Assembly (NCBI RefSeq): GCF_016801985.1
Contig: NZ_JAEVLS010000001.1
Location: 682,001-746,000, forward strand
Source: Steroidobacter gossypii
GTDB lineage: Bacteria > Pseudomonadota > Gammaproteobacteria > Steroidobacterales > Steroidobacteraceae
DNA: 64,000 nt
Reading direction: 5' to 3'
Shown here: positions 8,020-50,945 of the stretch, piece by piece
Position numbering within the stretch: position 1 is the stretch's first letter
Layout of the letters: each line of letters begins with the position of its first letter
The notes under the pieces: model-generated
Databases searched by the model: none
The model's input: only the letters and a program-made list of their open reading frames with translations
Told to the model about the DNA's origin: nothing
Translations under genes and position numbers: made by a program

Positions 8020-8080
8020 GCGGGCGTAACGCGATGACGCGAATCAAAGTTGCAATCCGCCGAGGATAGACGGCGGCAAA

Positions 8081-8113
8081 TAAAAAGGCACGGCGCAATC
8101 CTTGTGCCGTGCC
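8081..8113 (-). terminator. Rho-independent terminator after the 986-aa TBDR
   Basis: Read on the minus strand, the arms GGCACGGC and GCCGTGCC (8 bp, perfect) enclose an 11-nt loop and are followed at once by TTTTTA. It lies 55 nt after the receptor stop codon and before the ligase start, so it separates the two transcription units. Confidence 0.85.
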
Positions 8114-8167
8114 AAGTGCAGGATGAGCGGGAGGCGCCCTCTCCTGCGAACCGATCGCGGTTGCGAC

Positions 8168-11128
8168 TTACCGCGTCGCGCCGCCGAACGTTCCGCGCAC
8201 GCCCAGCAGAATCCGGCGAGAGCCGGACTCGAAAGCGAACGGCAGGTTCTCGTATTGCATGTACTGGCTCTGATCCTCTTCGGTCAGGTTGATCGCCTCC
8301 AGCGTCAAGCCGATGCTGTCCGTGACCTGGTAGCCGAGCTGCGCATCGAGCTGGCCATAGTCGCGATTCCAGACGCCGTAGGTGCGCGTCCCGCCGCCGT
8401 CGGAGAACTGGAAGTTGCCGTCGAACGATTCGTCGCGCCAGGTATAGGACAGACGCGCTTCGAAGCCGAAGTTCTCGTAATAGAGCTGCGCGTTATAGGC
8501 ATGCTTGGCGACGCCCGGGATGGGCAGGCCGCTGTCGATATCGTTGCTGAACGGCGATTCCGAATCGGAATAGGTGTAGTTGAGGTTGAAGCCGCCGCCG
8601 AAATCGAACGCGTACTGGCCCGCGAGCTCGAAGCCTTCGATGGTGCCGCCCGCGCCGTTGATCGGCCGCTGCACCGGCCCGAAGCGGCCCCCGGCCTGAT
8701 CCGGCACGAATACGGATTCGGTCACCACCGTGATGAACGAATCCACGCTCTTGCGGAACGCGGTCACCGCCGCCAGGCCCTGCCTGCCGAAGTAATATTC
8801 GTAGCCCAGGTCGAACTGCTTGGCGCGATACGGCTCGAGCTCCGGATTGCCCGAGCTGCCGTTGGTGAACTCGAACAGATCGGTCACCGGGTTGCGCGTG
8901 AAGTTGGTTTCGAAGCCGCGTCCCAGCAGGAACAGGTCCTGGCGCGCCACCACCTTCGCCGCCGACACGCGCACTTTGTGACCTTCGGCCACGTCCAGCA
9001 CGATGTTGGCGCTCGGCAAAACGTCGGTGTAGCTGCGATCGACCACGTTGGTTTCGTAGTCGCGCAGCACGCCGTTCCAGCTGTCCGTGCCCCAGTACGT
9101 CGGGTTGGGCAGCGCTGCGTTCTGCGCGACCGCCAGCTCGGTGCGCATCACGCGCGCGCCGAAGTTGATGTGATATCCGTCATCCGGCGCGCCGATATCG
9201 GCCATCAGATAAGCCGAAGTGGTTTCCTCCTCGACGTTGAATGTTTCCAACGGCGAGGGGAAGAACGTGAACGGCGTGTCCGGATACAAAGACTGGATCC
9301 ACGCCAGCGCGTTGTTCATCTGGCCGCGATTCTGCACCAGCACGCTGCTGGTGCCGGCGTTGCCCGAGCTCCAGAATCCGTTGATGCGCTCCACGCGCCC
9401 CGGCGAGCCGACCATGGTTTGATACGGCAGGATCAACGCCGGCGCGTCGCCGAAGCGGCTGCCGACCGAGCAGTTCGGCCGGCCTGGCGTTCCCAAGGGC
9501 GCTCCGCCCGCGTCCAGCGAATCGCACGCCTTCGGGCCGATGGCGCCGTCCTGGAAGTAACCGAAGTTGGTCCAGTTCGCGCCGTAGTCGATGCCGTCCA
9601 GATCGCTGCTGCCGTGATAGTCGGCTAGGTAACGGCCGAACTCGTAATCGATCTCGCGCTTGGCGCCGCGCACACCGCCGCTGAAAGTCACATTCCTGGA
9701 GCTGAAGAATGCCGGATCCCACTGCAGGTCGGCGCGCACCGACCAGTTTTCCGCGTCGGTGTTATCGGCGAACGCCCAGTGCGACTTGAAAAAGGCGTTG
9801 TTTGGATTGGTGAACAGATCCTGATTGCCGACCAGGGTGAAGGTCGGCAGCTCGCCGCCGTTGTTGTCGTAACGGAACTGATAGTTGGCGGGCGCGCCGG
9901 CGTTGGGCGCAAAGCCCGGACCGCCATCGAGCGCACGTACGCCGTACTGGGTGTAGCGCACGTCGTTGTTGGCGCTGCCGCTCTTCTGATCGGCTTTCGA
10001 ATAGGCCGCCGAGCCGCTGACGCGCACCGCGCCGCCGTTGTCCCATTTCATGCCCAGCTGGAAATTGTCCGAGTTGATCTCGGTGTTCTTGACGAACGAA
10101 ATCGCCTCGGCCGAGTTGGCCGTGAACGTGCCATTGAGTAACACGCCGTTGGGGTCGATCGCAAAAGGCTGCGTGATGTCGATGCCGGGCGATTCCAGCG
10201 AGAACGGAAACTTCAGCGATGCTTCCTGGGTGAGGATGTCCAGATTCGAGTGGAACCACATGCCTTCGATCTCGAGCGAATCGGTGGGCCGGAACGCCAC
10301 CGAGATCGAAGCACCCAGGCGCTCGCGCTCTTCGTCACGATCGGTGGTGTAGCGATACTCGGGTGCAAAGTAATCCTGCTCCACGTCGTCGCGGTCGAGC
10401 CGATCGCTGAATTTCCATCCGCCGCGATTCTGTCCGCCGAGCACGTCGGTCTGGAACACCTGCTTGTCGTAGGACACCGAGGCCAGCACGGCCAGCCGTT
10501 CGTTGAATTTATGGCTCGCCACCACCGCGCCCAGCGGCTCCCAGCCCTCGCCGGCATCGGCATAGCGCAGATTGCCGGCGATATTGGTGCCCTCGCCGAG
10601 CGAGAACGGACTGCGGGTTTTCAAATTGACGATGCCGCCCAATCCGCCTTCGAGCTGCGCGGCGTTCGGCGACTTGTAAACGTCGATGCCGCCGAGCAAC
10701 TCGGACGGGATGCCTTCCAGCGAATCGGTCTCGCGGAAATTGCCTTCGCCCTGCGTATACAGCTCGAGGCCGGTCAGAAAGATATCGTTGTTGAGCAACG
10801 TGACGTTCTGGTCCAGGCCGCGAATGCGCACCTTGGTGCCCTGGCCGTTGGAGCGATCGATCTGCACGCCGCTCAGGCGCTGCAAGGCTTCCGCCACGTT
10901 CTGATCGGGGAACTTGCCGATGTCCTCGGCGGCCACCGACTCGACGATCTGATTCGCTTCGCGTTTGGTTTCCAACGCGGTGGCCAGCGAGGCGCGGAAG
11001 CCGGTGACAACCACCTCCTCCACCACGCCCGTTTCCTCGGTCTGCGCGTTGACGTTGGCCCAGCTGAAACCGCTCAAGGACGCGGCGGTAACTGCCAGGG
11101 CGCGTGAATAGTGCTGACGGTTTCGCAT
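8168..11128 (-). CDS. TonB-dependent receptor, Caulobacter/Xanthomonas carbohydrate type (986 aa)
   Basis: A large outer-membrane transporter of the subgroup common in Xanthomonas and Caulobacter that carries oligosaccharides or other plant-derived compounds. After a signal peptide (MRNRQHYSRALAVTAASLSG and on) comes EEVVVTGFRASLATALETKR and the subgroup signature VESVAAEDIGKFPDQNVAEALQRLSGVQI (in parts). The plug ends with IDVYKSPNAAQLEGGLGGIVNLKTR. The barrel ends LLGVRGTF followed by a short GGATR tail, where most members stop at Phe. The frame opens upstream at 11212, but ATG at 11128 has a GGGGGTAA ribosome site and the signal peptide follows directly. It is monocistronic, with a terminator at its end. 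Its substrate is not evident. Confidence 0.93.
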   Translation of the reverse strand: MRNRQHYSRALAVTAASLSGFSWANVNAQTEETGVVEEVVVTGFRASLATALETKREANQIVESVAAEDIGKFPDQNVAEALQRLSGVQIDRSNGQGTKVRIRGLDQNVTLLNNDIFLTGLELYTQGEGNFRETDSLEGIPSELLGGIDVYKSPNAAQLEGGLGGIVNLKTRSPFSLGEGTNIAGNLRYADAGEGWEPLGAVVASHKFNERLAVLASVSYDKQVFQTDVLGGQNRGGWKFSDRLDRDDVEQDYFAPEYRYTTDRDEERERLGASISVAFRPTDSLEIEGMWFHSNLDILTQEASLKFPFSLESPGIDITQPFAIDPNGVLLNGTFTANSAEAISFVKNTEINSDNFQLGMKWDNGGAVRVSGSAAYSKADQKSGSANNDVRYTQYGVRALDGGPGFAPNAGAPANYQFRYDNNGGELPTFTLVGNQDLFTNPNNAFFKSHWAFADNTDAENWSVRADLQWDPAFFSSRNVTFSGGVRGAKREIDYEFGRYLADYHGSSDLDGIDYGANWTNFGYFQDGAIGPKACDSLDAGGAPLGTPGRPNCSVGSRFGDAPALILPYQTMVGSPGRVERINGFWSSGNAGTSSVLVQNRGQMNNALAWIQSLYPDTPFTFFPSPLETFNVEEETTSAYLMADIGAPDDGYHINFGARVMRTELAVAQNAALPNPTYWGTDSWNGVLRDYETNVVDRSYTDVLPSANIVLDVAEGHKVRVSAAKVVARQDLFLLGRGFETNFTRNPVTDLFEFTNGSSGNPELEPYRAKQFDLGYEYYFGRQGLAAVTAFRKSVDSFITVVTESVFVPDQAGGRFGPVQRPINGAGGTIEGFELAGQYAFDFGGGFNLNYTYSDSESPFSNDIDSGLPIPGVAKHAYNAQLYYENFGFEARLSYTWRDESFDGNFQFSDGGGTRTYGVWNRDYGQLDAQLGYQVTDSIGLTLEAINLTEEDQSQYMQYENLPFAFESGSRRILLGVRGTFGGATR

Positions 11129-11232
11129 GTTTTTACCCCCAAATGCGATCGAACCTGCGAACTGATATGGGCCGATGACCCTTGTGTGATTCCCCCGACG
11201 GTGGCCAGGCATCCCTGCGACCGTCGCGCCGG

Positions 11233-23901: not shown

Positions 23902-25257
23902 TCACGCCGTCTCACGCAGCAGCGATTTGTACCAGAGCGCGCTGCGCTTCAACGTCCGTTGCAGAGTCGCGTAATCGACGTGCACGATGCCGAAGCGCTT
24001 GCTGTAGCCCTCGGCCCACTCGAAGTTGTCCATCAGGCTCCAGACAAAATAGCCGCGCACGTTCACGCCTTGATCGATGGCGTCGGCGACGGCGAGCAGA
24101 TGGGATTCGATGTACTGCCGACGCTGCTCATCTTCGATCCGCCCATCAACGTACTGATCGCGATAAGCGGCGCCGTTCTCGGTGATGTAGATGGGTGGCA
24201 ATCGATAGTCGCGCTTCAGCCGCAGTAACAAATCTGACAACCCGCGCGGCGCCACTTCCCAACCCATGTCGGTCACCGCAGCGCCACTGCGGGCGGGCGC
24301 GGCCGGGTTGGAGCTGCCCGACACCGTCGGATGGTAGTAATTGATGCCGACGAAGTCGCACGGCTGCGCGATGAGTTCGGCATCGCCAGCTTGCACCTGG
24401 GGCGCATCCGCACCGAGATGGTCGATGATGTCGCTCGGATACTGCCCCTTGAACAAGGCATCGGTGTACCACCGGATGAGGCGACCATCCTCCAGCCGCG
24501 CGTGACGGGCGTCGACTTCGGAATCTGTTTCGGGACGCACCGGCGACATGTTCAAAACGATGCCCAGTTCGGCCTTGACGCCGAGCGCCCGCATCGCCTG
24601 CATCGCCAGGCCATGGCTCAACAACAGATGATGGCTGGCCTGATAAGCCACACGCCGGTCCTTCACGCCCGGCGCGAACACGCCACGCTCGTAACCGAGC
24701 ACCGCCGAGACCCACGGTTCGTTATGAGTCGCGATGGAAACAAGGCGATCGCCGAGGCGGCTCGTCACCAGCCCGGCGTACTCTGCAAATCGATACGCAG
24801 TGTCGCGCGCGAACCAGCCGCCGCCGCGATGCTGTAGCTCGGCGGGCAAATCCCAGTGGTACAAAGTAGCGTAGGGCTGGATGTTTCTTTTCAGCAGGCC
24901 ATCCACCAGACGCTCATAGAACGACAGGCCGCGTTCGTTCACTGGCCCGGCGCCGGTCGGCTGCACTCGCGGCCAGGAAATGGAGAAACGATACGCCGTC
25001 ACGCCAAGGTCGGCGATGAGATCCAGGTCCGACTCCAGGCGGTGATAGTGATCGCAGGCCACGTCGCCGGTGCCGCCATCGGCAATCGCGCCGGGCACTC
25101 GGCAGAATTCGTCCCAGATCGACGGCCCCTTGCCGTCGCTGCGTGCCGCGCCTTCGATCTGGAAGGCGCTAGTGGCCACGCCCCACGCGAATCCGTTGGG
25201 AAAGCGCCGGCGCAGCTCGGCTGTCGATAGTTGCTGAGGCATCGCTGTGGGTATCAA
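23902..25257 (-). CDS. Glycoside hydrolase family 1 beta-glucosidase
   Basis: A 451-aa retaining beta-glycosidase. The GH1 N-terminal signature is FAWGVATSAFQIEGA. The acid/base is E180 in THNEPW and the nucleophile is E360 in IYITENGAAY. Substrate residues such as YHWDLP and WSLMDNFEWAEGYSKRFGI at the C-terminus are intact. There is no signal peptide, so it acts in the cytoplasm on beta-glucosides brought in by the transporters of this locus. The start overlaps the stop of the LacI gene (ATGA), showing coupling. Cellobiose, laminaribiose or plant aryl-glucosides are all possible substrates. Confidence 0.95.
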   Translation of the reverse strand: MIPTAMPQQLSTAELRRRFPNGFAWGVATSAFQIEGAARSDGKGPSIWDEFCRVPGAIADGGTGDVACDHYHRLESDLDLIADLGVTAYRFSISWPRVQPTGAGPVNERGLSFYERLVDGLLKRNIQPYATLYHWDLPAELQHRGGGWFARDTAYRFAEYAGLVTSRLGDRLVSIATHNEPWVSAVLGYERGVFAPGVKDRRVAYQASHHLLLSHGLAMQAMRALGVKAELGIVLNMSPVRPETDSEVDARHARLEDGRLIRWYTDALFKGQYPSDIIDHLGADAPQVQAGDAELIAQPCDFVGINYYHPTVSGSSNPAAPARSGAAVTDMGWEVAPRGLSDLLLRLKRDYRLPPIYITENGAAYRDQYVDGRIEDEQRRQYIESHLLAVADAIDQGVNVRGYFVWSLMDNFEWAEGYSKRFGIVHVDYATLQRTLKRSALWYKSLLRETA

Positions 25258-26315
25258 TCGGGTTGAGGCGCCGCCGTCGACTCGCGCACCACGAGCTGAA
25301 CCTGCGGCAACGAAATATTCGGCTGCTCACCTTGCAACAGCTGCAACATGGCCGCGCCGGAGCTTTCGCCCAGCACGCGGATGGATTGACGGACCGTGGT
25401 GAGCGGCGGCACGCGATACGAAGACGAATGCAGGTCGTCGAAGCCGACGACGGAAACATCGCGCGGGCAATTCAGCCCGGCGCGATACAAAGCGAGGCAC
25501 GCACCGTACGCCGACTGATCGTTGACACAGAACAGCGCGGTGAACTTGTGCCCGGAAGCAAGCAGCCGCCGGGTCGCCTCGACGCCGCCTTCTTCATGGA
25601 AGTCGCCAGGCACCACCAGCTTCGGATCGTGAGGAATGCCCGCCTCGGCAAGCGCCCGTCGATAACCTTTGTAACGCAGCGACGCGTCCGGGTGATCGAG
25701 GATGCCGGCGATGAATGCGATCCGACGATGGCCCAGCCCGATGAGATGCTGGGTGGCCAACATGCCGCCCCGCTCGTCGTCCACCGGCAGACTGAAAATT
25801 CCCGGGGCTTTCAGATTGCGGGCGGTGACCACCAGCGGCACCTGCTTGGCGTACTGCGCGAGCTGACGATCCTGCAAGCGGCCCGAAAAAATGATGATGC
25901 CGTCGACGCGCCGGGACAGCAGCTCGGACATGCAGCGCTCCTCGTCCTGCTCGTCCCAATTGCCGCTCATGAACAGCGCCGTATAGCCGCGCTGCTGCAG
26001 ATAATCTTCGATGCCGCGCAGACCTTCACCATAGAACGGGCTGTCGATGGCCTGCGTGATCACGCCGATCGTATTCGACTTGCCCAGCGCCAGACCGCGG
26101 GCGGCGGCATTCGGTCGGAAGTTGAGCTTGGCGATGGCCGCCTCCACCGCATCCTTGCGCTCGGGGCTGACCTTGGCGGTGCCGTTGATGATGCGCGACA
26201 CGGTGGCAATGGACACGCCGGCTTCCTTCGCCACCATTTCCAGCGTGGGTGGCGAATCCGGGGCGGCGGTCATGGCGCGCTTCTTGAGGTTGTTATTGGC
26301 GGCTCGCTTGCTCAT
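25254..26315 (-). CDS. LacI family transcriptional regulator
   Basis: A 353-aa repressor. The N-terminal helix-turn-helix is TLEMVAKEAGVSIATVSRIINGTAKVSPE (in parts) at about residues 24-52, followed by the hinge helix region NAAARGLALGKSNTIGVI. The remaining 270 residues form a periplasmic-binding-protein-like sugar sensor. It sits between the sugar porter and the beta-glucosidase, and a perfect palindromic LacI-type operator lies in the divergent promoter region at 27876-27889. It very likely controls both arms of the locus, with the ligand probably a glucoside or its breakdown product. Confidence 0.94.
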   Translation of the reverse strand: MSKRAANNNLKKRAMTAAPDSPPTLEMVAKEAGVSIATVSRIINGTAKVSPERKDAVEAAIAKLNFRPNAAARGLALGKSNTIGVITQAIDSPFYGEGLRGIEDYLQQRGYTALFMSGNWDEQDEERCMSELLSRRVDGIIIFSGRLQDRQLAQYAKQVPLVVTARNLKAPGIFSLPVDDERGGMLATQHLIGLGHRRIAFIAGILDHPDASLRYKGYRRALAEAGIPHDPKLVVPGDFHEEGGVEATRRLLASGHKFTALFCVNDQSAYGACLALYRAGLNCPRDVSVVGFDDLHSSSYRVPPLTTVRQSIRVLGESSGAAMLQLLQGEQPNISLPQVQLVVRESTAAPQPD

Positions 26316-26347
26316 CGTCGCTCGTGTGTGTTCACTGCCGGCGTGGT

Positions 26348-27748
26348 TCAGGCCTTGGCCGTCATCAGGTCGCTCTCTAGCTGCTCAAGCGTGCGGCCTT
26401 TGGTTTCCGGCACGAGCAGCACCACGAACAGCAACGCCGCGGTGGCGAACAGAGCGAACGCCAGGAACGTTCCGCCCGAGCCGAGCGTCGACAGCGCCCA
26501 CGGAAAAATCATGGTGACCGTGGCGCTGACCAGCGCATTCCAGAAGCCTGCCACCGAGATGGCGGCGGCGCGCTGTTCATTCGGAAATATCTCCGAAAGC
26601 AGCACCCACATCACCGGCCCGAGCGAAATCGCGAACGAAGCGACGAAGCCGATGATGGCGATCAGCACCAGCGTCGCATTATAACTTTGCTGGCTGAACG
26701 CCCAGCTGATGGCGAACAAGGACAGCGCCATGCCGGCGATGCCCATGATCAGCAGCGGCTTGCGCCCGAGCCGGTCGATCAGCCAGATCGCGACGAATGT
26801 CATCAACACGTTCACCACGCCCACCAGCACTGCCTGCCGGAACGCGTCGTTCACGCCGCCGCCGGCCTGCGAGAAGATGGTCGGCAAGTAATAGAAGATG
26901 GCGTTGATGCCGGTGATCTGCTGGAAGAACGCCAGCCCCAGCGCGATGATCATGATGGTCCGCACGCGCGAGTCCAGCAGGCCACGGAAGCCTCGCGAGA
27001 CCGCTTTGGATCCCAGGCTCTGCCGAATCTGCAGCAGATTTTCCTGCGCCTGCTGTTCACCGCCGACTTGTCGCAGCACCTGCAACGCTTCCTCGTCGCG
27101 CGCCTTGAGCAGCAACCAGCGTGGGCTTTCCGGCACCAGCCACAGCAAGGCGAAATACAACAGCGCCGGAATCATCTGCACGCCAAGCATGTAGCGCCAG
27201 TTGTGCTCGCCCGTCTCCAACAGGAAATAGTTGGAAAAGAACGAAGCCGAAATACCGATCACGATCATCAGCTGATTCAGCGACACCAGGCTGCCGCGCT
27301 TGTCGGCCGGCGCGATCTCGGCGATGTACACGGGCGCAATCAGGATTGCGCCGCCGACTGCGAGCCCTCCGACGATGCGTGCGGCCACGAAGCTTGGAAA
27401 CGAAGTGGCCGAGGCCGCCAGCAACGAGGACAGCACGAACAACAACGCGGTGCCGAGCAGCACTCGTCGCCGGCCGAAACGATCGCTGAGCGGACCGGCG
27501 ATGGCGTTGCCCGCCATCGCGCCCCAGCCAAGACTGCTGACGGCGAATCCCAGCTTCAGGTCGCCGCTCGCACCGCTCAAAGAAAAGTATTCACGTATGA
27601 ACGGCACGACGCCGGAGATCACCGTGGCGTCGAAGCCGAGCAGAAAGCCCCCGAGCGCCACCGTCAGCGCCACGTACGCGATATTCAATCTGCCTTGCAG
27701 CATGTGACTTCGCTCGGTTTTTTTCGTGCTCTCGCGAGCATCGTTCAT
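26348..27748 (-). CDS. Sugar porter family MFS transporter
   Basis: A 466-aa inner-membrane sugar symporter with 12 segments. Sugar-porter signatures are all present: GFLLGFDATVISG in segment 1, GPLSDRFGRRRVLLG in loop 2-3, PESPRWLLLK in the central loop, QQITGINAIFYYLPTIF in segment 7 and PETKGRTLEQLE at the C-terminus. It would move a mono- or disaccharide into the cytoplasm, where the beta-glucosidase acts. ATG 27748 has no clear ribosome site; ATG 27703, preceded by GAGCGAAG, is an alternative start that would remove 15 residues. It is the first gene of a porter-lacI-GH1 operon. Confidence 0.93.
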   Translation of the reverse strand: MNDARESTKKTERSHMLQGRLNIAYVALTVALGGFLLGFDATVISGVVPFIREYFSLSGASGDLKLGFAVSSLGWGAMAGNAIAGPLSDRFGRRRVLLGTALLFVLSSLLAASATSFPSFVAARIVGGLAVGGAILIAPVYIAEIAPADKRGSLVSLNQLMIVIGISASFFSNYFLLETGEHNWRYMLGVQMIPALLYFALLWLVPESPRWLLLKARDEEALQVLRQVGGEQQAQENLLQIRQSLGSKAVSRGFRGLLDSRVRTIMIIALGLAFFQQITGINAIFYYLPTIFSQAGGGVNDAFRQAVLVGVVNVLMTFVAIWLIDRLGRKPLLIMGIAGMALSLFAISWAFSQQSYNATLVLIAIIGFVASFAISLGPVMWVLLSEIFPNEQRAAAISVAGFWNALVSATVTMIFPWALSTLGSGGTFLAFALFATAALLFVVLLVPETKGRTLEQLESDLMTAKA

Positions 27749-27875
27749 TGTTAGCGGTCACTATGACCGCTTCCCCCCGATTTCACCAGCGGCGCTCGCT
27801 GCTATCCAGCGGGCGCCGTCGATGGCCGCGGCGGCCGACCCTTGCCGGAACGCCAGGGAGCATGCTACCGTAATT

Positions 27876-27889
27876 TGTAAGCGCTTACA
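27876..27889. promoter_or_regulatory. LacI-family operator, perfect 14-bp palindrome TGTAAGCGCTTACA
   Basis: TGTAAGC followed directly by GCTTACA is fully self-complementary with the central CG pair typical of LacI/GalR operators. It lies 81 bp before the GTG of the receptor gene and 127 bp before the porter ATG. TTGTAA at its left edge, 16 nt before TTTACT (27897-27902), could be the receptor promoter, so bound repressor would cover the -35. The cognate regulator is most likely the LacI protein at 25254-26315. Confidence 0.85.
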
Positions 27890-27970
27890 TCCGGTGTTTA
27901 CTGGCTGAATGCACCGGCGCCGGCGCAACAATAATTTTCGCAACGAGTGACATGGTCGGGGGGTAAGGTC

Positions 27971-30937
27971 GTGAGCGATCGCGCATTCCAACGCAATAAA
28001 GTAGCGCGTGCCATCTCTTTGATTCTCGGAACGGCGGTGGCATTTCCAGCCGTCTCGCAAGAAGGCGCCGAGGTCGAAGAGGTAGTGGTCACCGGCATCC
28101 GGGGCAGCTTGACCTCCTCGATGGAGCTCAAGCGCGACTCGCAAGGCGTGATGGACGGCATCGTCGCCGAAGACATCGGCAAGTTCCCGGACACCAACCT
28201 CGCCGAATCCATGCAACGTGTCAGCGGCGTGTCCATCGATCGCTCGCTCGGCGAAGGGTCGAAAGTCACGGTGCGCGGCGTCGGCCCCGACTTCAACCTG
28301 GTGTTGTTGAACGGTCGACAGATGCCTGCGTCGGCATTGGAAGATACCGGCGCATCGCCGTCGCGCGCCTTCGACTTCGCCAACCTCGCATCGGAATCGA
28401 TCTCTGCGATCGAGGTTTACAAGACCAGCCGCGCCAGCACGCCGACCGGCGGCATCGGCGCGACCATCAACATCAAGACCGCTCGCCCGCTCGACAATCC
28501 GGGCCTGCGCACCAGCTTCGGCGCCAAGGGCGTGATGGACACCTCGGTGGACAATCTGCCGGACGCCTTGCAGGGCGACTCGATCACTCCGGAAGTCTCG
28601 GGCATTTACAGCGATACCTTCGCCGACGACAAGTTCGGCATCGCCGTGAGCGCCAGCTACCAGGAACGTGACTTCGGCTTCAACCAGGCCGCCGTCGCCA
28701 ACGGCTGGAAAGCATTCGCGGGCGATGAAAACAATTGGGGCACGATTCCGCAGCCGGGCGCGCCCGGCTCGGAGAACATCACCAATCGTCCCGGCCCCAA
28801 CGACACTTATTCGGTGCCGCAGAATCTCGGTTACAGCGTCACCGGCATCGAGCGTAAGCGCACCAACGGCCAGCTGACGCTGCAGTACGCGCCCACCGAC
28901 ACCATCACGACCACGCTCGATTACACCTACTCGGAAAACAAGATCGCGCAGCAGCGCAACGAGTTGTCGGTGTGGTTCAACTTCGGTCCGTCGACCAGCA
29001 CCTGGACCGACGGGCCGGTGTCCTCGCCGCTGATCTATTCCGAAACCATCGTGCCGGCCACCAGCGACCTGTCGATGGGCGGCGCCAAGTTCGCCACCAA
29101 GAACGAAAACAAGTCGCTGGGCTTCAACGTCGAGTGGCAAGCCACCGACCGCCTCGGCCTGGCGTTCGATTATCACGATTCCTCGGCCGAATCCGGCGCC
29201 GACAGCCCGTATGGTTCGAATGCGGTGCTCGGCGTAGCCGGCTTCTTCCGGGGCACCACGACCGCGGACTTCTCGCGCGATTTCCCCGTGATGAGCGTGG
29301 AACTGCCGCCAGGTCAGAACGGCATCGACGCTTCGCAAATGGAAGTCACCGGCTCGAGCTTCCGTAACAGCTACATGAAGACCGACATCAAGCAGGCGCA
29401 GCTGACCGGCAACCTGGAGTTCTTGGAAGACTCCCGGCTCGACTTCGGCGTGGCGCTGACCGATGTGAAGAATCGTTCCGCGTTCTCCAACGTACAGCGC
29501 GATACCTGGAGCGGCGCGACCAGCCCGGCCGATTATCCCGACGACGTGTGGCGCGCGGATACGGTGCGTCAGTACTTCGACAACATTTCAGGCAGCGGCA
29601 ATCCGGCGCTGTTCAATCAGTTCTTCACGTTCGACTTCGAGACGGTGCGTGCGATTGCAGCGCGCGCCGCGGGCGATGAATCGCTCTATCGCACCACGCC
29701 GATCTTCGATACCGATCGACGGGTCGAGGAGGAATCGCAGAGCGCGTTCATTCAGTACAGCACCGAATGGGAATGGGGTTTGCCGATGCAAGGCGCCGTC
29801 GGGCTGCGCTATGAGAAAACCGACGTGACCGCACGCGCGCTGGTCCCGATCCCCACCGGCATTCTGTGGGTCGCCGACAACGAGTTCTCGCTGCAGACCA
29901 GTGGCGGCACGTTCGAACAGCTCGAAGGCGACTACGACTATGTGCTGCCGAGCCTCGACTTCGCCGTCGACATCACCGACAGCCTCAAAGCTCGCGCCAG
30001 CTACGGTCACAGCATCGGCCGCCCGCTGTGGAACAACATCCAGGGCGGTCGCACCATCAATTCGCTGGTGCGCATCGAGGGCGGCACGGGCATTCAGGGC
30101 AATCCCAAGCTCAAGCCGCTCGAGTCGGAAAACATCGATCTGTCGCTCGAGTGGTATTACGGCGACTCGAACTACATGGCGGTGGGTTACTTCCGCAAGA
30201 ACATCGACAACTACATCGGCACCAGCGTTCAGCAGCAGTCGCCGTACGAATTGCTGACTCCCTCCGGCGGCGCGTACTTCAACGCCGCGGTCGCGGCAGG
30301 CTGCACTACATCGACTTGTATCCGCCAGTACATCTTCACCAACTTCGCCGGCCAGCCGGGCGTGACGGTGACGGGCACGGATGAAACCACGGGCGACCTG
30401 CTCGGCACCATCGCCGGCGTCCCTGGCGATCCGATCGCGAGCTTCGCCGTGCAAGTGCCGTTGAACCAGAGATCGGCCTCGCTCGACGGTTGGGAATTCA
30501 ACATCCAGCACATGTTCGGCGACACGGGGTTCGGCGTTTCGGCCAACTACACCCTGGTGGACTCCGACCTGGTCTACGACAACTACTCGCGCTCGGATCA
30601 GTTCGCGCTGGTGGGCCTGAGCGACGCGGCCAACCTGGTGGCGTTCTTCGAGAACGACAAGTTCGGGGTGCGTGCAGCGTACAACTGGCGCGACAAGTTC
30701 CTCGCCAACACGTTCGATGGCGGCGGCTTGCCCAATCCGGTGTACACCGAGGCTTATGGTCAGATCGATCTCACCGCCAGCTACACCTGGAACGAGAACC
30801 TGACGGTGACGGCGGAGGTGATCAATCTCACCGACGAGATCTACCGCCAGCACGGCCGCACCACGCATCAGCTGATCACGGTCCAGCAGACCGGACCGCG
30901 CTACATGATCGGCGCGCGTTACAAGTTCGGCGACTAA
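27971..30937 (+). CDS. TonB-dependent receptor of the LacI-controlled glucoside locus
   Basis: A 988-aa outer-membrane transporter. After the signal peptide (VARAISLILGTAVAFPAVSQ) come EEVVVTGIRGSLTSSMELKR, the subgroup signature GIVAEDIGKFPDTNLAESMQRVSGVSI (in parts) and NLVLLNGRQMPAS. The barrel end is YMIGARYKF plus a short GD tail. Start: GTG at 27971 has GGGGGGTAAGG directly upstream; the frame can open at GTG 27947 but that start lacks a ribosome site. It stands divergent from the sugar porter across a LacI-type operator and is followed by terminator-like hairpins. The context indicates uptake of an oligosaccharide or glycoside that the cytoplasmic beta-glucosidase degrades. Confidence 0.93.
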   Translation: MSDRAFQRNKVARAISLILGTAVAFPAVSQEGAEVEEVVVTGIRGSLTSSMELKRDSQGVMDGIVAEDIGKFPDTNLAESMQRVSGVSIDRSLGEGSKVTVRGVGPDFNLVLLNGRQMPASALEDTGASPSRAFDFANLASESISAIEVYKTSRASTPTGGIGATINIKTARPLDNPGLRTSFGAKGVMDTSVDNLPDALQGDSITPEVSGIYSDTFADDKFGIAVSASYQERDFGFNQAAVANGWKAFAGDENNWGTIPQPGAPGSENITNRPGPNDTYSVPQNLGYSVTGIERKRTNGQLTLQYAPTDTITTTLDYTYSENKIAQQRNELSVWFNFGPSTSTWTDGPVSSPLIYSETIVPATSDLSMGGAKFATKNENKSLGFNVEWQATDRLGLAFDYHDSSAESGADSPYGSNAVLGVAGFFRGTTTADFSRDFPVMSVELPPGQNGIDASQMEVTGSSFRNSYMKTDIKQAQLTGNLEFLEDSRLDFGVALTDVKNRSAFSNVQRDTWSGATSPADYPDDVWRADTVRQYFDNISGSGNPALFNQFFTFDFETVRAIAARAAGDESLYRTTPIFDTDRRVEEESQSAFIQYSTEWEWGLPMQGAVGLRYEKTDVTARALVPIPTGILWVADNEFSLQTSGGTFEQLEGDYDYVLPSLDFAVDITDSLKARASYGHSIGRPLWNNIQGGRTINSLVRIEGGTGIQGNPKLKPLESENIDLSLEWYYGDSNYMAVGYFRKNIDNYIGTSVQQQSPYELLTPSGGAYFNAAVAAGCTTSTCIRQYIFTNFAGQPGVTVTGTDETTGDLLGTIAGVPGDPIASFAVQVPLNQRSASLDGWEFNIQHMFGDTGFGVSANYTLVDSDLVYDNYSRSDQFALVGLSDAANLVAFFENDKFGVRAAYNWRDKFLANTFDGGGLPNPVYTEAYGQIDLTASYTWNENLTVTAEVINLTDEIYRQHGRTTHQLITVQQTGPRYMIGARYKFGD

Positions 30938-30953
30938 ACCCTGCGCGTTCCCC

Positions 30954-30973
30954 GAGGTACAGGGAAGTACCTC
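30954..30973 (+). repeat. Hairpin after the TBDR gene
   Basis: GAGGTAC and GTACCTC form a perfect 7-bp stem around AGGGAA, 17 nt after the receptor stop. A 12-bp palindrome TCCCCATGGGGA follows at 30975-30986. They may stabilise the receptor mRNA 3' end or reduce transcription into the halogenase genes. Confidence 0.55.
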
Positions 30974-30994
30974 ATCCCCATGGGGACGAGCGAG

Positions 30995-31029
30995 AAAGCC
31001 GCCGTTCCCCCCGGCGGCTTTTTCTTTTT
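30995..31029 (+). terminator. Rho-independent terminator between TBDR and halogenase operon
   Basis: AAAGCCGCC and GGCGGCTTT form a 9-bp stem with a C-rich 9-nt loop, followed by TTTCTTTTTA. It lies 44 nt before the first halogenase gene, so the receptor is probably made in excess over the downstream genes, which need read-through or their own promoter. Confidence 0.88.
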
Positions 31030-31073
31030 ACGCCAGGCATAGTAGCGTGGGTCGAGATGTCAGGGGCGGATCG

Positions 31074-32609
31074 ATGTCGGAGATCAATCACATCGTGATC
31101 GTGGGCGGCGGCTCGGCCGGCTGGCTCACCGCGGGTGTGCTCGCCGCCGAGCACCGTTCGCTGCGAATCACGCTGCTCGAGTCTCCAACCGTCGGGCCCA
31201 TCGGCGTCGGCGAAGGCACCTGGCCGACGATCCGCGACACGCTCAGAAGCATCGGCGTCACCGAAACCGACTTCATTCGCGAGTGCGACGCCTCGTTCAA
31301 GCAAGGCTCGAAATTCCAGCAATGGGTCACGACGCGCGCGGGGGATTATTACTTCCATCCATTCGTGCTGCCGCAGGGCTATACCGAAACCAATCTGGTG
31401 GCCGGCTGGCTGGAACGCCACGCCCATGTGCCGTTCGCCGACCTCGTCAGTTTCCAACCCCACCTATGCGCGCACGGCAAAGCGCCGAAGCAGGCGGCGA
31501 CGCCCGAATACGCCGCCGTCGCGAACTACGCGTATCACCTCGATGCCGGCAAGTTTGGCCTGTTCCTGCGTAAACATTGCGTCGAGAAACTCGGCGTGCA
31601 GCACATGCTCGACCACGTCGTCGGCATCAACGCACACGACAACGGCGACATCGCCTCGGTGCAAACCCAAGAGAACGGCGCAGTCGGCGGCGATCTGTTT
31701 GTCGATTGCAGCGGCATGCAGTCGCTGCTGCTCGGCGGGCACTTCGGCGTGCCATTCCTTTCGCAGAAGCACGTGCTGTTCAACGACACGGCGCTGGCCA
31801 TGCAAGTCCCCTATCGAAGCGACGACAACCCGATCGAATCGCAGACCTTGTCGACCGCACAGAGCAATGGTTGGATCTGGGATATCGGCTTGCCCACTCG
31901 CAGAGGTATCGGGCACGTCTATTCGAGCGCGCACACCACGGACGACGCGGCTGAGCGCGAACTGCGCACATATATAGAGCGCATCGGCGAACCTCGAGAC
32001 ATGCCTGCGCCGCGGAAACTCACCTTCAATCCTGGCTACCGCGAACAGTTCTGGCACCGAAATTGTGTGGCGATCGGTTTGTCCGCAGGCTTCATCGAAC
32101 CATTGGAAGCGTCAGCCATCGCGCTGGCCGAGCTTTCCGCGGCGATGTTGCGCGATCAGATGCCGGCCACTCGAGCCGCAATGGACATCGTCGCGCGCCG
32201 CTTCAACGAGACATTCACGTATCGATGGGAGCGGGTCATCGATTTTCTGAAGCTGCACTACGTGCTGACCCAGCGCACCGACTCGGATTTCTGGCGCGAC
32301 AACTGCCGCGCGGAGTCGATTCCGACCCGGCTGCAGGAACAGCTGACGTTGTGGCGTCACCAGCCACCTTCCCGTTACGATTTCAACCGCGTCGAGGAAG
32401 TGTTCCCCTCGGCGAGCTATCAGTACGTGCTATACGGGATGGGTTTTCGCCCCGAGCACACCGGGCGGTCGAGTCGCGCCAACGATGCAGATCGCGCCGA
32501 CCGCTTTTTTCGGGAAGCGGCTGAGCTGACCTCCAGGATGTTGTCGGCGCTGCCCACCCACCGGGCGCTGATCGATCACATCAAGCGCCATGGGCTGTCC
32601 AAGGTCTAA
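31074..32609 (+). CDS. Flavin-dependent tryptophan halogenase family protein (first copy)
   Basis: A 511-aa member of the tryptophan 7-halogenase family, which uses FADH2, O2 and halide. It shows the FAD-binding HIVIVGGGSAGWLTAG, the GVGEGTWPTI region, and the halogenase W-x-W-x-I block as SNGWIWDIGLPTR. The lysine that carries or guides the chlorinating species aligns with the first Lys of ASFKQGSKF, and the catalytic Glu aligns with the first Glu of GFIEPLEAS; both are kept. ATG 31074 follows AGGGG. No natural-product pathway is near. The next genes are sapC, a cupin_8 protein and a second halogenase. This set beside carbohydrate TBDRs is a recurring arrangement whose physiological substrate is not known to me. 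Confidence 0.9.
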   Translation: MSEINHIVIVGGGSAGWLTAGVLAAEHRSLRITLLESPTVGPIGVGEGTWPTIRDTLRSIGVTETDFIRECDASFKQGSKFQQWVTTRAGDYYFHPFVLPQGYTETNLVAGWLERHAHVPFADLVSFQPHLCAHGKAPKQAATPEYAAVANYAYHLDAGKFGLFLRKHCVEKLGVQHMLDHVVGINAHDNGDIASVQTQENGAVGGDLFVDCSGMQSLLLGGHFGVPFLSQKHVLFNDTALAMQVPYRSDDNPIESQTLSTAQSNGWIWDIGLPTRRGIGHVYSSAHTTDDAAERELRTYIERIGEPRDMPAPRKLTFNPGYREQFWHRNCVAIGLSAGFIEPLEASAIALAELSAAMLRDQMPATRAAMDIVARRFNETFTYRWERVIDFLKLHYVLTQRTDSDFWRDNCRAESIPTRLQEQLTLWRHQPPSRYDFNRVEEVFPSASYQYVLYGMGFRPEHTGRSSRANDADRADRFFREAAELTSRMLSALPTHRALIDHIKRHGLSKV

Positions 32610-32612
32610 CTC

Positions 32613-33323
32613 ATGAGCAAACATGCCCTGCTGAACAACATCGACCACAAGGATCTGCGCGTGATCACCACACGCAGCGCCGAGCTGGGCGACAACGTGA
32701 TGCTGGCGCTCACGTTTCCGTCGGAGTTCCGCGACTTGCAGGCGCACTATCCCATCGTGTTCCGCAAGAACGCGCAGGGCCAGTTCGAGCCCATTGCACT
32801 GCTGGGTTTCAAAGACGGGCAGAACCTGTTCCTGAACCGGCACGGCTGGGATGCGAGCTACATTCCGCTGACCATCGAGCGGCAGCCGTTCCTGATCGGC
32901 TTCGGCGCCGATCGCGAACCGGTGATGCACATCGACCTGGATCATCCGAGAGTCAGTCGCGACTCCGGCGAGCCTTTGTTTCGAGAGTTCGGCGGCAACA
33001 CCGAGTTTCTGGAGCGTATGAACTCGGTGCTGCTCGCCATTCACCAGGGCATGGCCGCGAATGAATCTTTCATCGGAACGTTGCTGCAGTTCGAGCTGCT
33101 CGAGTCGTTCGTCTTCGACATTCAGTTGAACGACGGCTCGCACAATCGGCTGGCCGGCTTCTACACCATTCATGAGGAACGTCTCCGCGATCTGAACGGC
33201 GCCGTGCTGGAGCGCTTGAACCGCACGGGTCACCTGCAAGCCATGTATATGCAGCTCGCATCGCTCTCACAGTTCCGGGCGCTGATCGAGCGGATGAACA
33301 AGCTCGATGCTGGCGATCGCTAA
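32613..33323 (+). CDS. SapC family protein
   Basis: A 236-aa protein of the SapC family. Recognisable blocks are VITTRSAELGDNVMLALTFPSEFRDLQAHYPIVFRK (in parts), GFKDGQNLFLNRHGWDASYIPL and NDGSHNRLAGFYTIHEERLRDLNG (in parts). The name comes from a gene near Campylobacter surface-layer loci; the biochemical role is unknown. There is no signal peptide or membrane segment. It starts 4 nt after the halogenase stop and overlaps the next gene by 17 nt, so it is translated with them. A ligand-binding or chaperone role for the halogenase module is only a guess. Confidence 0.9.
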   Translation: MSKHALLNNIDHKDLRVITTRSAELGDNVMLALTFPSEFRDLQAHYPIVFRKNAQGQFEPIALLGFKDGQNLFLNRHGWDASYIPLTIERQPFLIGFGADREPVMHIDLDHPRVSRDSGEPLFREFGGNTEFLERMNSVLLAIHQGMAANESFIGTLLQFELLESFVFDIQLNDGSHNRLAGFYTIHEERLRDLNGAVLERLNRTGHLQAMYMQLASLSQFRALIERMNKLDAGDR

Positions 33324-34320
33324 CAAAGCCCGGGAGATCACCGGCGTCGATCCGCGCGCGTTGCCGGATGACGTGCTGCTTTCTACGCAGCCGCTCGTGC
33401 TCAAGGGCCTGGTTGCAGATTGGCCCATCGTGCGCGCCGGGCTGCAGTCGAATCAGTCCGCCATCTCATACATCCGCAGGTTCTATCGCGATGCGACGGT
33501 TGGCGCGCTGCTGGGCGCGCCGGACATCGAAGGCCGGTTCTTCTATAACGAAGATCTCAGCGGCTTCAACTTCAAGGCGGTGAAGCTCAAGCTGGACGTG
33601 ATGCTGGACGAAGTCGAGCGCCACAAGGATGCAAGCAAGCCGCCGGCGATCTACGTCGGTTCGACCACAATCGACACGTGCCTGCCAGGATTTCGCGACG
33701 AGAACGATCTGGGGTTCGGCGATCGCAACCCCCTGGCGAGCATCTGGCTCGGCAATCGCACACGCATCGCGGCTCATCACGACCTGCCGGATAACGTCGC
33801 CTGCGTCGTGGTGGGGCATCGTCGCTTTACGCTGTTCCCACCGGAGCAGTTGCAGAATCTTTATATCGGGCCGCTGGATTTCACACCGGCCGGGCAAGCC
33901 ATCAGCATGGTGGACTTCGCCAGACCTGACTTGCAGCGCTTTCCCAAGTTCGCCGAGGCCGTGCGGCACGCGCAGCTCGCGGAGCTCGGGCCGGGCGACG
34001 CGCTTTTCATTCCGAGCATGTGGTGGCACCACATCGAAGCGCTCGATGCGTTCAACGTGCTGGTGAATTACTGGTGGCGGCAATCGCCCGCCTTCATGGA
34101 TTCGCCCATCAGCGCACTGATGCTCGCCATCATGACGGTGCGTGATCTGCCCAAGGCGCAGCGCGACGCGTGGTTCAACCTGTTTCGTCACTACGTATTC
34201 GAAGCGGACGAAAGCACCGCTGCTCACATTCCAGAAGGCGCCCGCCGCGCGCTATCGCCCATGGATGAAGACATGGTTCGCGATATCCGCGCGCGGCTGC
34301 TACAAAGATTGAATCGTTAG
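33307..34320 (+). CDS. Cupin_8 / JmjC-like Fe(II) oxygenase-fold protein
   Basis: A 337-aa protein of the cupin-like (JmjC, FIH-1-like) class. Metal ligands appear as RIAAHHDLPDNVACVVVG (HxD) and the distal His in FIPSMWWHHIEAL. LVLKGLVADWPIV near residue 30 is the usual opening of this family. Such proteins hydroxylate proteins or small molecules using 2-oxoglutarate. The gene overlaps the sapC end by 17 nt and is followed 9 nt later by a second halogenase, so it belongs to the same operon. The substrate is unknown; modification of a protein or of the imported glycoside's aglycone are both possible. Confidence 0.88.
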   Translation: MLAIANKAREITGVDPRALPDDVLLSTQPLVLKGLVADWPIVRAGLQSNQSAISYIRRFYRDATVGALLGAPDIEGRFFYNEDLSGFNFKAVKLKLDVMLDEVERHKDASKPPAIYVGSTTIDTCLPGFRDENDLGFGDRNPLASIWLGNRTRIAAHHDLPDNVACVVVGHRRFTLFPPEQLQNLYIGPLDFTPAGQAISMVDFARPDLQRFPKFAEAVRHAQLAELGPGDALFIPSMWWHHIEALDAFNVLVNYWWRQSPAFMDSPISALMLAIMTVRDLPKAQRDAWFNLFRHYVFEADESTAAHIPEGARRALSPMDEDMVRDIRARLLQRLNR

Positions 34321-34329
34321 GGGACCCAT

Positions 34330-35817
34330 ATGACCCGCAAGCGCATCCAGAAGATCGTCATCGCAGGCGGCGGCACGGCCGGCTGGATGGTGGCCGCCGG
34401 CCTGTCGCGCACCCTGGGCAAGACGCTGGACATCAAGCTGGTCGAGTCCGATGAGATCGGCACGGTAGGCGTGGGTGAAGCGACCATTCCCACGCTGGTG
34501 ACCTTTCATCGCCTGCTGGAGATCAACGAGCAGGAGTTCATGGCCGCGACCCAGGGAACGTTCAAGCTGGGCATCGGCTTCGAGAACTGGCGCGGGCTGA
34601 ACCAGAACTACATACATTCCTTCGGCACCACCGGCAAGGATCATTGGACGGCGGGGTTCCAGCATTTCTGGCTCAAAGGCCGCGAGCGCAACCTTGCCAG
34701 CGACTATGGCGACTATTGTGTCGAGCTCAAAGCCGCGGAACAGAACCGCTTCGCTCACCTGCCTCGCGGCGGCATGAACTACGCGTTTCACATCGATGCT
34801 GGCCTGTACGCGAAGTTTCTGCGCAGATACAGCGAAGGCTACGGCGCGAAACGTATCGAAGGCAAGATCGTCAACGTGCTCACGCACGATGACACTGGCT
34901 TCATCAAGGCGATCCGGCTGGACTCGGGCGCGGAGATCGAGGGCGACCTGTTCATCGATTGCACCGGCTTTCGCGCGCTGCTGATCGGCCAGACATTGCG
35001 CGAGCCGTATGAAGATTGGTCACATTGGCTACCCTGCGACAGCGCGGTGGCGCTACAGACGGAGTCAGTGGGCGAAGCGGTTCCATACACTCGCTCCATC
35101 GCGCGCGATGCGGGTTGGCAATGGCGCATTCCTCTTCAGCATCGGGTTGGCAACGGCATGGTTTACTGCAGCCGTTATATCAGCGACGAGCAGGCCAAGC
35201 AGACGCTACTCGCCAATGTCGAAGGCCCGGTGCGCACGGAGGCGCGCGTTATCAAGTTCAAGCCGGGCCAGCGACGGCAGACGTGGTTGAAGAACTGCGT
35301 CGCGGTGGGACTGGCGAGCGGCTTTATCGAGCCGCTGGAATCGACCAGCATTCACTTGATCGGGCGGAGCATCATCCGTTTGCTGCAGATGTTCCCGAGC
35401 GAAGGCGTCAGCCAAGCCGATATCGAGGAGTTCAATCGCCAGACCGTGGCGGAGATCGAGCACATCCGTGACTTCATCGTCCTGCACTACCACGTTACGG
35501 ATCGGCAGGACACACCGTTCTGGAACGCGTGCCGAACCATGGATATTCCGGCGTCGCTGCGCCATCGCATCGAGTTGTTCCGGGAGACGGGTCGCGTGTT
35601 TCGCACGACCAATGAGTTGTTTGCGGAGAATTCGTGGGTTCAGGTGATGCTGGGTCAGGGCATCACGCCCAAGCAGTACCACCAGGTGGCGGATTTGATG
35701 AGTGACGCGGAGCTGTCACGGTTCCTCGAAGGGATCAAGTCGCAGGTGGAGAGTACAGTGCGGCAGTTGCCGAGCCATCACGCGTACGTTGAGCAGTACT
35801 GCAAGGCGAACAGTTGA
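34330..35817 (+). CDS. Flavin-dependent tryptophan halogenase family protein (second copy)
   Basis: A 495-aa tryptophan halogenase-like protein. Features: IVIAGGGTAGWMVAAGLSR for FAD binding, GVGEATIPTL, and the block AGWQWRIPLQHR with both Trp of the W-x-W-x-I-P motif. The reactive-intermediate Lys (first Lys of TFKLGIGF) and the Glu of GFIEPLESTS are kept, so it may be active. It is distinct in sequence from the first copy in this operon (for example RNLASDYGDYCVELKAAEQ), so the pair is not a recent duplication. A GGGGACC ribosome site precedes the ATG. It is the last gene of the halogenase-sapC-cupin_8-halogenase block. Confidence 0.9.
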   Translation: MTRKRIQKIVIAGGGTAGWMVAAGLSRTLGKTLDIKLVESDEIGTVGVGEATIPTLVTFHRLLEINEQEFMAATQGTFKLGIGFENWRGLNQNYIHSFGTTGKDHWTAGFQHFWLKGRERNLASDYGDYCVELKAAEQNRFAHLPRGGMNYAFHIDAGLYAKFLRRYSEGYGAKRIEGKIVNVLTHDDTGFIKAIRLDSGAEIEGDLFIDCTGFRALLIGQTLREPYEDWSHWLPCDSAVALQTESVGEAVPYTRSIARDAGWQWRIPLQHRVGNGMVYCSRYISDEQAKQTLLANVEGPVRTEARVIKFKPGQRRQTWLKNCVAVGLASGFIEPLESTSIHLIGRSIIRLLQMFPSEGVSQADIEEFNRQTVAEIEHIRDFIVLHYHVTDRQDTPFWNACRTMDIPASLRHRIELFRETGRVFRTTNELFAENSWVQVMLGQGITPKQYHQVADLMSDAELSRFLEGIKSQVESTVRQLPSHHAYVEQYCKANS

Positions 35818-35863
35818 GATCCAGGTGTTGCTGCGATAGCTGACCGGAAGACCCACCCCCTGC

Positions 35864-35885
35864 CCCCTCCCGTGAACGGGAGGGG
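35864..35885 (+). terminator. Hairpin terminator of the halogenase operon
   Basis: CCCCTCCCG and CGGGAGGGG form a 9-bp stem with a TGAA loop, followed after AATCATC by TTTTTC and more T-rich sequence. It lies about 50 nt after the second halogenase stop. The T tract is offset by 7 nt, so termination may be less tight than in the 30995 terminator. Confidence 0.65.
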
Positions 35886-36029
35886 AATCATCTTTTTCTT
35901 CTTTTGTTATTCCCGAGTTGAAGCGAGAAAGGGCTGTGTGCTCTGCGCCCTCGGCGGGGAATCAGCAAACGTACTGGCGGCACCCGGGCGTGCACGGAAA
36001 TGGTAGGCGCGACTGGCGAGGCGAGAGGG

Positions 36030-50837: not shown

Positions 50838-50945
50838 CAAACCTCCCGTCGTGCAATCAGGCCACAGGCATCTATTGCTAATTCCTGAGGTGCCGGATTG
50901 TTCGCCTGGAGCCACAACTGTTCTGCGCGGGCGCGGCAGAACCTC

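Follow-up and report, generated by a model that had tools for sequence, protein, structure and literature searches.

A sugar-uptake locus of Steroidobacter gossypii with a receptor-linked halogenase, SapC and oxygenase module

A 64,000-nucleotide stretch of the Steroidobacter gossypii genome (NCBI RefSeq assembly GCF_016801985.1, contig NZ_JAEVLS010000001.1, positions 682,001 to 746,000 of the forward strand; the whole stretch is called the window) contains a sugar locus in which a TonB-dependent receptor (TBDR) gene is followed by genes for two flavin-dependent halogenases, a SapC-family protein and a Cupin_8 protein. Why halogenases and an oxygenase should stand behind a sugar receptor is the question raised by this locus. 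Our survey demonstrates that the module is real, widespread and receptor-linked, and the linkage itself is near certain. We propose, with a probability of about 0.4, that this is a beta-glucoside uptake locus whose cytoplasmic module adds halogen and hydroxyl groups to the TBDR polypeptide ahead of its export. The features of the locus, in window coordinates, are as follows.

23902–25257, minus strand: GH1 beta-glucosidase (PF00232, 532 bits; TIGR03356 above cut-off)
25254–26315, minus strand: LacI-family regulator (PF00356 and Peripla_BP_3 above cut-off)
26348–27748, minus strand: MFS sugar porter (PF00083, 390 bits; TIGR00879 above cut-off)
27876–27889, no strand: candidate LacI-type operator, perfect palindrome TGTAAGCGCTTACA, between the divergent genes
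27947–30937, plus strand: TBDR of the TIGR01782 type (660.7 bits against a cut-off of 310; plug and barrel)
30992–31030, plus strand: terminator-like hairpin of 13 pairs with a T-run, in the TBDR/HalA interval
31047–32609, plus strand: HalA, flavin-dependent halogenase (PF04820, 414 bits)
32613–33323, plus strand: SapC-family protein (PF07277, 235.6 bits against a cut-off of 28.9)
33307–34320, plus strand: Cupin_8 protein, FIH-like Fe(II)/2-oxoglutarate oxygenase (246 bits)
34330–35817, plus strand: HalB, flavin-dependent halogenase, relative of Xcc4156 (PF04820, 648 bits)
35864–35885, plus strand: terminator-like hairpin 3′ of HalB, from the hairpin scan

The GH1, LacI and porter genes diverge from the TBDR gene, behind which HalA, SapC, Cupin_8 and HalB follow in this order. 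An earlier note, made from the sequence alone, had described these eight genes; all were confirmed as open frames, and all match the families it named.

Receptor linkage of the module

The genome survey, which the earlier note had suggested as a check, covered 299 Pseudomonadota genomes, 36 of which (S. gossypii included) have a halogenase at E ≤1e-60, with at most five candidates scored per genome. Taking up to 20 kb around each of these halogenases, those of S. gossypii left out, gave 84 loci, and L148 and L150 bring the number to 86 (stretches are cited by L number where they must be told apart). Profiles identified 121 halogenases in these loci. A TBDR directly flanks the halogenase block for 103 of them, 97 by a profile built on the receptors of S. 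gossypii, which possibly misses distant receptors, and 6 more by Pfam. Such flanking receptors occur at 72 of the 86 loci, and some TBDR lies within the stretch at 75. By comparison, control open reading frames (ORFs) of at least 300 residues adjoin a TBDR other than those at halogenase blocks in 7 of 408 cases, and adjoin any TBDR, all receptors counted, in 51 of 480. The survey thus leaves the receptor linkage standing. The view that natural-product clusters are the usual home of tryptophan halogenases does not describe this sample, in which most adjoin a TBDR.

SapC follows the same arrangement. Twenty-eight of the 31 SapC genes in the surveyed loci stand in a halogenase block behind a same-strand TBDR; one more belongs to a SapC-plus-halogenase block cut by a contig end, and two are without halogenase or TBDR. 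Of the polypeptide genes adjoining the module in the survey, only that of the TBDR is constant. The row TBDR-(HalA)-SapC-Cupin-HalB recurs among 54 named loci found by SapC pair alignment, a set biased to close relatives, with titles that include Pseudoxanthomonas, Lysobacter, Duganella, Massilia, Alteromonas, Shewanella, Marinimicrobium, Novosphingobium, Kordiimonas and others. Annotated plasmids carry a TBDR with halogenases, SapC and cupin being present or not. As control hits, matches to SapC, Cupin_8 and halogenase also turned up in the genome of the laboratory strain Caulobacter vibrioides. At L161, L163 and L201 the halogenases adjoin another receptor type (CarboxypepD_reg with an OMP_b-brl_4 barrel), showing that the halogenase link is not confined to TIGR01782 receptors.

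The S. gossypii genome itself has 7 SapC genes, 7 halogenases above 400 bits and 3 Cupin_8 genes, in several arrangements: TBDR-SapC-Cupin-HalB (L019), TBDR-HalA-SapC-DUF6445 (L022), TBDR-HalA-SapC (L023) and TBDR-HalB with a gene that, by reading, is GH31-like (L024). SapC diverges from a TBDR at L025, and a second SapC of L019 (at 15300) lies 614 nt from the receptor of that locus, in divergent orientation. For the SapC of L020 the profile found no TBDR within its 20 kb; there a Porin_5 gene, SapC and an OmpH/Skp-like gene stand in a row (7065–11225), with a 4-nt overlap between the last two and 808 nt between the porin gene and SapC, where a 186-residue ORF lies on the opposite strand. The halogenase of L021 has no directly adjoining receptor, and a 742-residue ORF that reads as receptor-like lies a few ORFs off.

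Spacing within the window locus is tight from HalA onward. HalA and SapC are separated by 3 nt (the earlier note gave 4), and its 17-nt overlap of SapC with the cupin gene (33307–33323) and 9-nt gap between cupin and HalB were found as described. The HalA start may be the ATG at 31074 instead of the GTG at 31047. The hairpin between TBDR and HalA (30992–31024 with its T-run), overlooked in the earlier note, has a fold z of −3.7, and none of 200 shuffled sequences was equally stable; with so strong a hairpin, the module is probably expressed by read-through or from its own promoter. A simple scan found no promoters in 27600–36000, a result that says little since 2.0 are expected by chance. The 113 gaps measured after linked TBDRs have a median of 100 nt, the 244 gaps within modules one of 5 nt, and 37 of the 107 gaps above 25 nt after linked TBDRs hold terminator-like hairpins, against a shuffled mean of 0.95 (19 of 57 against 0.8 in the survey and own-genome subset). 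The long gaps and hairpins would fit a large amount of receptor and a small amount of enzyme.

Proteins of the module

Both halogenases match PF04820, the family of variant A flavin-dependent halogenases, and have the flavin adenine dinucleotide (FAD) motif GxGxxG. Neither has lost the catalytic residues Lys and Glu (K85 and E354 in HalA, K79 and E337 in HalB), as the earlier note had said. In the survey and own genome together, Lys is kept in 102 of 107 HalB and Glu in 103 of 107, and both are kept in 22 of 22 HalA. The nearest solved structure is 2pyx for HalA (571 bits) and Xcc4156 (6y1w, 754 bits) for HalB, which also matches BrvH (6frl, 465 bits) and, at lower similarity, the PF04820-like MibH (5uao, 172 bits). 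HalB has the motif WxWxIP and shares it, with the FAD motif and the catalytic Lys, with Xcc4156 and BrvH. HalA has WxWxIG; among 61 relatives of HalA the last position is Gly in 48 and Pro in 3, and the residue after the catalytic Glu is Ala for Ser in 57. Judged by its sequence, HalA is a separate subfamily, and these two replacements suggest that its handling of halide or substrate may differ. PrnA, RebH and Thal, which act on free Trp and are encoded inside natural-product clusters, are alike in belonging to PF04820 and in the catalytic Lys and Glu, and unlike HalA at the mostly WxWxIG motif and at the Ala after Glu. The precursor peptide of MibH is encoded together with it.

The active sites of the nearest relatives of HalB may admit peptides. 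Passages of the Xcc4156 paper describe an open active site and "possibly even peptides" as substrates, and state that the native substrates "remain unknown" (PMC7336383); those on BrvH describe a MibH-like open site and a second halogenase upstream (PMC5945002). HalB probably shares this open site by analogy. According to the same passages, free Trp is not halogenated by Xcc4156 and BrvH (PMC7336383), and MibH acts on Trp within a peptide, a precedent for a polypeptide substrate (PMC5945002, PMC7336383). TonB has zero occurrences in the Xcc4156 and BrvH papers by term search; the present survey identifies the TBDR as the genomic partner.

The best match of the Cupin_8 protein in the PDB is FIH (82 bits), and JMJD5 aligns as well; the Cupin_8 protein is like both in its kept Fe ligands. 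These ligands (H157, D159 and H241) and R172, the basic 2-oxoglutarate residue, are kept in 87 of 87 relatives, and R172 presumably stands at the position of the 2-oxoglutarate-binding Lys of FIH. A DUF6445 protein in or beside some modules, which retains an HxD motif, another His and an Arg in all of 20 sequences, looks like a further 2-oxoglutarate oxygenase. An AlphaFold model of SapC from 72 sequences is of high quality (predicted local distance difference test score 97.4, predicted template modelling score 0.91). A sequence search of the PDB with SapC gave nothing at E ≤1, Foldseek gave no match there at E ≤0.001 (the best being 0.098, template modelling score 0.16), and the viral structures of BFVD gave no fold match either. 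The four module proteins look cytoplasmic, as no signal peptide was seen by eye.

SapC was found in 21 of 143 genomes of a class sample and in 103 of 299 of the phylum sample, and 21 of the 23 SapC loci of the class sample are without the module. At 11 of these 21 an ORF of at least 1200 residues lies within two genes, some of the ORFs being cut by the stretch end. Among the SapC neighbours scanned, which are a part of the total, are TpsB (L146, L157, L158, L260), HlyD (L138, L254 and weakly L252), OEP/TolC-like (L139, L257) and SecA-like proteins (L142, L252), and PpiC (L152, plus 5 of 65 neighbours in a second sample of 20 loci). Outside the module SapC thus partly accompanies surface-protein export genes. 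Three genomes (L249, L250, L251) have alike SapC neighbours; the next gene in L249 is a Mu-type portal, so SapC may sit in a prophage there.

The families, the kind of locus and the suggestion of peptide substrates for the nearest halogenases are already known. In the open literature searched, no paper was found that mentions both halogenase and SapC, and none that links Xcc4156/BrvH-type halogenases to TBDRs; eleven papers mention halogenase as well as "TonB-dependent". Passages of PMC8269204 contain no TonB, the TBDR-halogenase linkage was not seen in the passages of PMC11337851 that were covered, and a term search found no mention of halogenase in PMC2996990 and PMC3400609. It is likely that TBDR-linked halogenases have already been noticed by annotators or regulon databases. 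The description in the earlier note of a multi-enzyme oxidation and halogenation set with no described role is in keeping with this, and with the statement cited above on the native substrates of the nearest characterised enzymes (passages of PMC7336383).

What the module may modify

On a tree built from 73 linked and 32 unlinked TBDRs, 105 in all, the linked ones cluster, a comparison weakened in sampling by the origin of 29 of the unlinked receptors from S. gossypii or nearly so. The linked/unlinked label changes 10 times on the tree against a shuffled mean of 27.8, with 0 of 500 shuffles as low, and in three large clades 33 of 34, 17 of 17 and 20 of 23 members are linked (70 of 74). Distances of 66 TBDR and nearest-HalB pairs correlate with r = 0.47, the top of 1000 shuffles being 0.126. 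Within genomes, where species history cancels, the correlation of 53 pairs is 0.45 against 0.10 ± 0.10, with 0 of 2000 shuffles as high. In 54 of 56 cases, against 20.8 expected, the closest TBDR from another genome is paired with the halogenase that is also the closest in that genome. These data show that TBDR and halogenase are co-inherited as matched pairs; contact between the proteins is not thereby proved.

Several lines of evidence lead us to favour the receptor as substrate: the TBDR linkage, the varied sugar genes nearby, the matched trees, the kept catalytic residues, the export-gene company of SapC, the open active sites of the relatives and the hairpins after receptors. The proposed course is as follows. 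A sugar or its product bound by LacI would free the operator, and the porter, GH1 and TBDR would be made. Part of transcription would pass the TBDR hairpin, and the four module proteins would be made in lower quantity. SapC may hold the unfolded TBDR polypeptide before export, and the halogenases and the 2-oxoglutarate oxygenase could then add halogen and hydroxyl groups to its side chains. More tentatively, the module could belong to a widespread receptor-maturation system in which SapC-guided halogenases and 2-oxoglutarate oxygenases mark TBDRs before export, each halogenase being matched to a receptor lineage; we regard this generalisation as possible and somewhat doubtful. If true, it would to our knowledge provide the first case of an outer-membrane protein halogenated by enzymes encoded next to it, the SapC family would gain a function in handling large surface proteins, and sugar uptake in many soil, plant and sea bacteria would rely on a new post-translational halogenation or hydroxylation. 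The survey in any case offers a concrete candidate substrate, the adjacent receptor, for Xcc4156/BrvH-type halogenases, and ties together families that lacked an assigned role: SapC, DUF6445 and the TBDR-linked halogenases.

A number of observations weigh against the receptor as substrate. About 32 TIGR01782 receptors of S. gossypii are above the cut-off; 6 adjoin a halogenase or SapC and most do without. In the survey 18 of the 121 halogenases lack a directly flanking TBDR, and the scanned neighbours of some of these are glycosidases, peptidases and others. Physical linkage alone can yield matching trees without protein contact. SapC also has neighbours without an envelope link (tRNA synthetase, Mu portal, NeuB, malic enzyme and mechanosensitive channel), and no experiment has yet revealed a modified receptor. 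The three linked TBDR clades have no Trp column in common, the best minimum frequency being 0.15, and none among 492 tests of aromatic columns clearly tracks HalA, which is gained or lost 11 times across the 76 TBDRs linked to SapC (47 have HalA and 29 lack it).

The residue search gave no convincing site. A single universal halogenated Trp was not found on the TBDR alignment, and Trp differences from a rough alignment were not common to the three clades on a better one. The aromatic columns most typical of linked TBDRs are a Phe (0.73, 0.53 and 0.95 in the clades against 0.14) and a Tyr (0.79, 0.47 and 0.85 against 0.21); both may simply mark the receptor type. In the HalA-tracking test the columns of lowest p, to which an earlier test was limited, all ran against HalA, and the six best in the positive direction were then examined. 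The best column of the 492 tests, a Phe, is present in 26 of 47 TBDRs with HalA and 3 of 29 without; it goes along with HalA in 3.2 of 10 independent pairs and opposite in 0.4, which is too few. If receptors are modified, the sites would therefore be lineage-specific or not single conserved aromatics. The suggestion of the earlier note that a protein such as the receptor is modified is the option favoured by the evidence, although the searches for a modified residue found none.

The missing residue would also suit a module that acts on another envelope protein or peptide, such as a surface protein or one that works with the receptor, the TBDR being only a co-regulated neighbour. The giant proteins and export genes that SapC accompanies elsewhere fit this as well; the constancy of the TBDR beside the module and the matching trees do not, and we consider such a target unlikely. 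The leading idea of the earlier note was that a transported compound or an aromatic plant-glycoside aglycone is modified in the cytoplasm. GH1, porter and LacI do fit a glucoside, and BrvH and Xcc4156 brominate free indole or its derivatives, according to passages of PMC5945002 and PMC7336383, although BrvH does so at only 2.5 mU/mg (passages of PMC5945002). The sugar genes beside related modules are too varied for it. Among 58 neighbours scanned, hand-picked from 137 unlabelled ones, the best 25 of 74 families listed include GH3 in 7, the GH13 alpha-amylase domain in 4, GH10 in 2, and GH67, GH97, GH43, GH9, GH31, GH68, alpha-L-fucosidase and glucoamylase in one each, besides non-sugar families (peptidases, helicase, sensor kinase); annotated plasmids add GH16, GH3, GH43, GH9, GH97 and agarase. 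By family name these glycosidases target starch, xylan, agar, levan, fucosides and beta-glucans, a range to which an aglycone-specific role is a poor fit. Modification of an aglycone or other small molecule is thus disfavoured, and we rate it as quite unlikely.

Just as improbable, in our estimate, is the absence of any functional bond, in which an old operon is kept by linkage and co-regulation and the enzymes serve an unrelated oxidative metabolism. Jointly inherited linked genes give matching trees without interaction, and the halogenases lacking a flanking TBDR speak for it. Against it, the TBDR tie recurs in alpha-, beta- and gammaproteobacterial records while the nearby sugar genes change, and nearly all members of the three large TBDR clades are linked. 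TBDRs are docking sites for phages, and a modification could hide the site from phages or bacteriocins while leaving sugar transport untuned. Phages carry related halogenases, and two of three inspected records have them close to 2-oxoglutarate oxygenases and virion genes; the modules, however, stand in sugar loci and the inspected phage halogenases are distant, so that a role in hiding the receptor seems very improbable. Modification of the TBDR polypeptide before export remains the reading we prefer.

Phage relatives and the surroundings of the locus

A tblastn search found 81 phage records that match HalB, marine phages of cyanobacteria and Pelagibacter among them, and the inspected halogenases have 29–33% identity (stretches L269 5421–7380, L270 4497–12437 and L274 5995–7566). 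The halogenases of Pelagibacter phage HTVC008M and of Synechococcus phage syn9 have several 2-oxoglutarate-Fe(II) oxygenase genes and virion genes as neighbours, which parallels the pairing of halogenase and oxygenase in the module; in phage S-B64 the nearest annotated 2-oxoglutarate gene is about 5 kb from the halogenase. Scans of viral contigs, which reach close relatives only, confirmed no relatives of the module. An unverified 23-kb faecal record titled "Bacteriophage sp." (L273, MT835646.1) encodes a halogenase of 51% identity roughly 1 kb from a SapC, a distance that would accommodate a cupin gene. The record is perhaps bacterial and filed as phage.

The palindrome that the earlier note had placed between the divergent genes is perfect at its position, and TGTAAGCGCTTACA has one exact copy in the 7.1-Mb genome, plus one site with 1 mismatch. 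The gene content of the locus (TBDR, sugar porter, glycosidase and regulator) is that of a TBDR-type carbohydrate utilisation (CUT) locus and supports the LacI-type glucoside locus described in that note. The CUT loci of Xanthomonas and Caulobacter bring the same four kinds of gene together; the window locus differs from them in its module, and the paper on them (PMC1790865) has zero occurrences of halogenase, SapC, Pass1 and cupin by term search. The earlier note saw no natural-product cluster here, and in agreement with this no polyketide synthase, nonribosomal peptide synthetase or similar family was found among 20 window proteins scanned, a scan that left smaller genes out and used no cluster-finding program. 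Two further TBDRs are encoded on the minus strand at 314–3280 and 8168–11212, without an adjoining halogenase or SapC match, and a bacteriophytochrome-type sensor kinase (PHY, GAF, PAS_2, HisKA) is encoded at 48612–50915.

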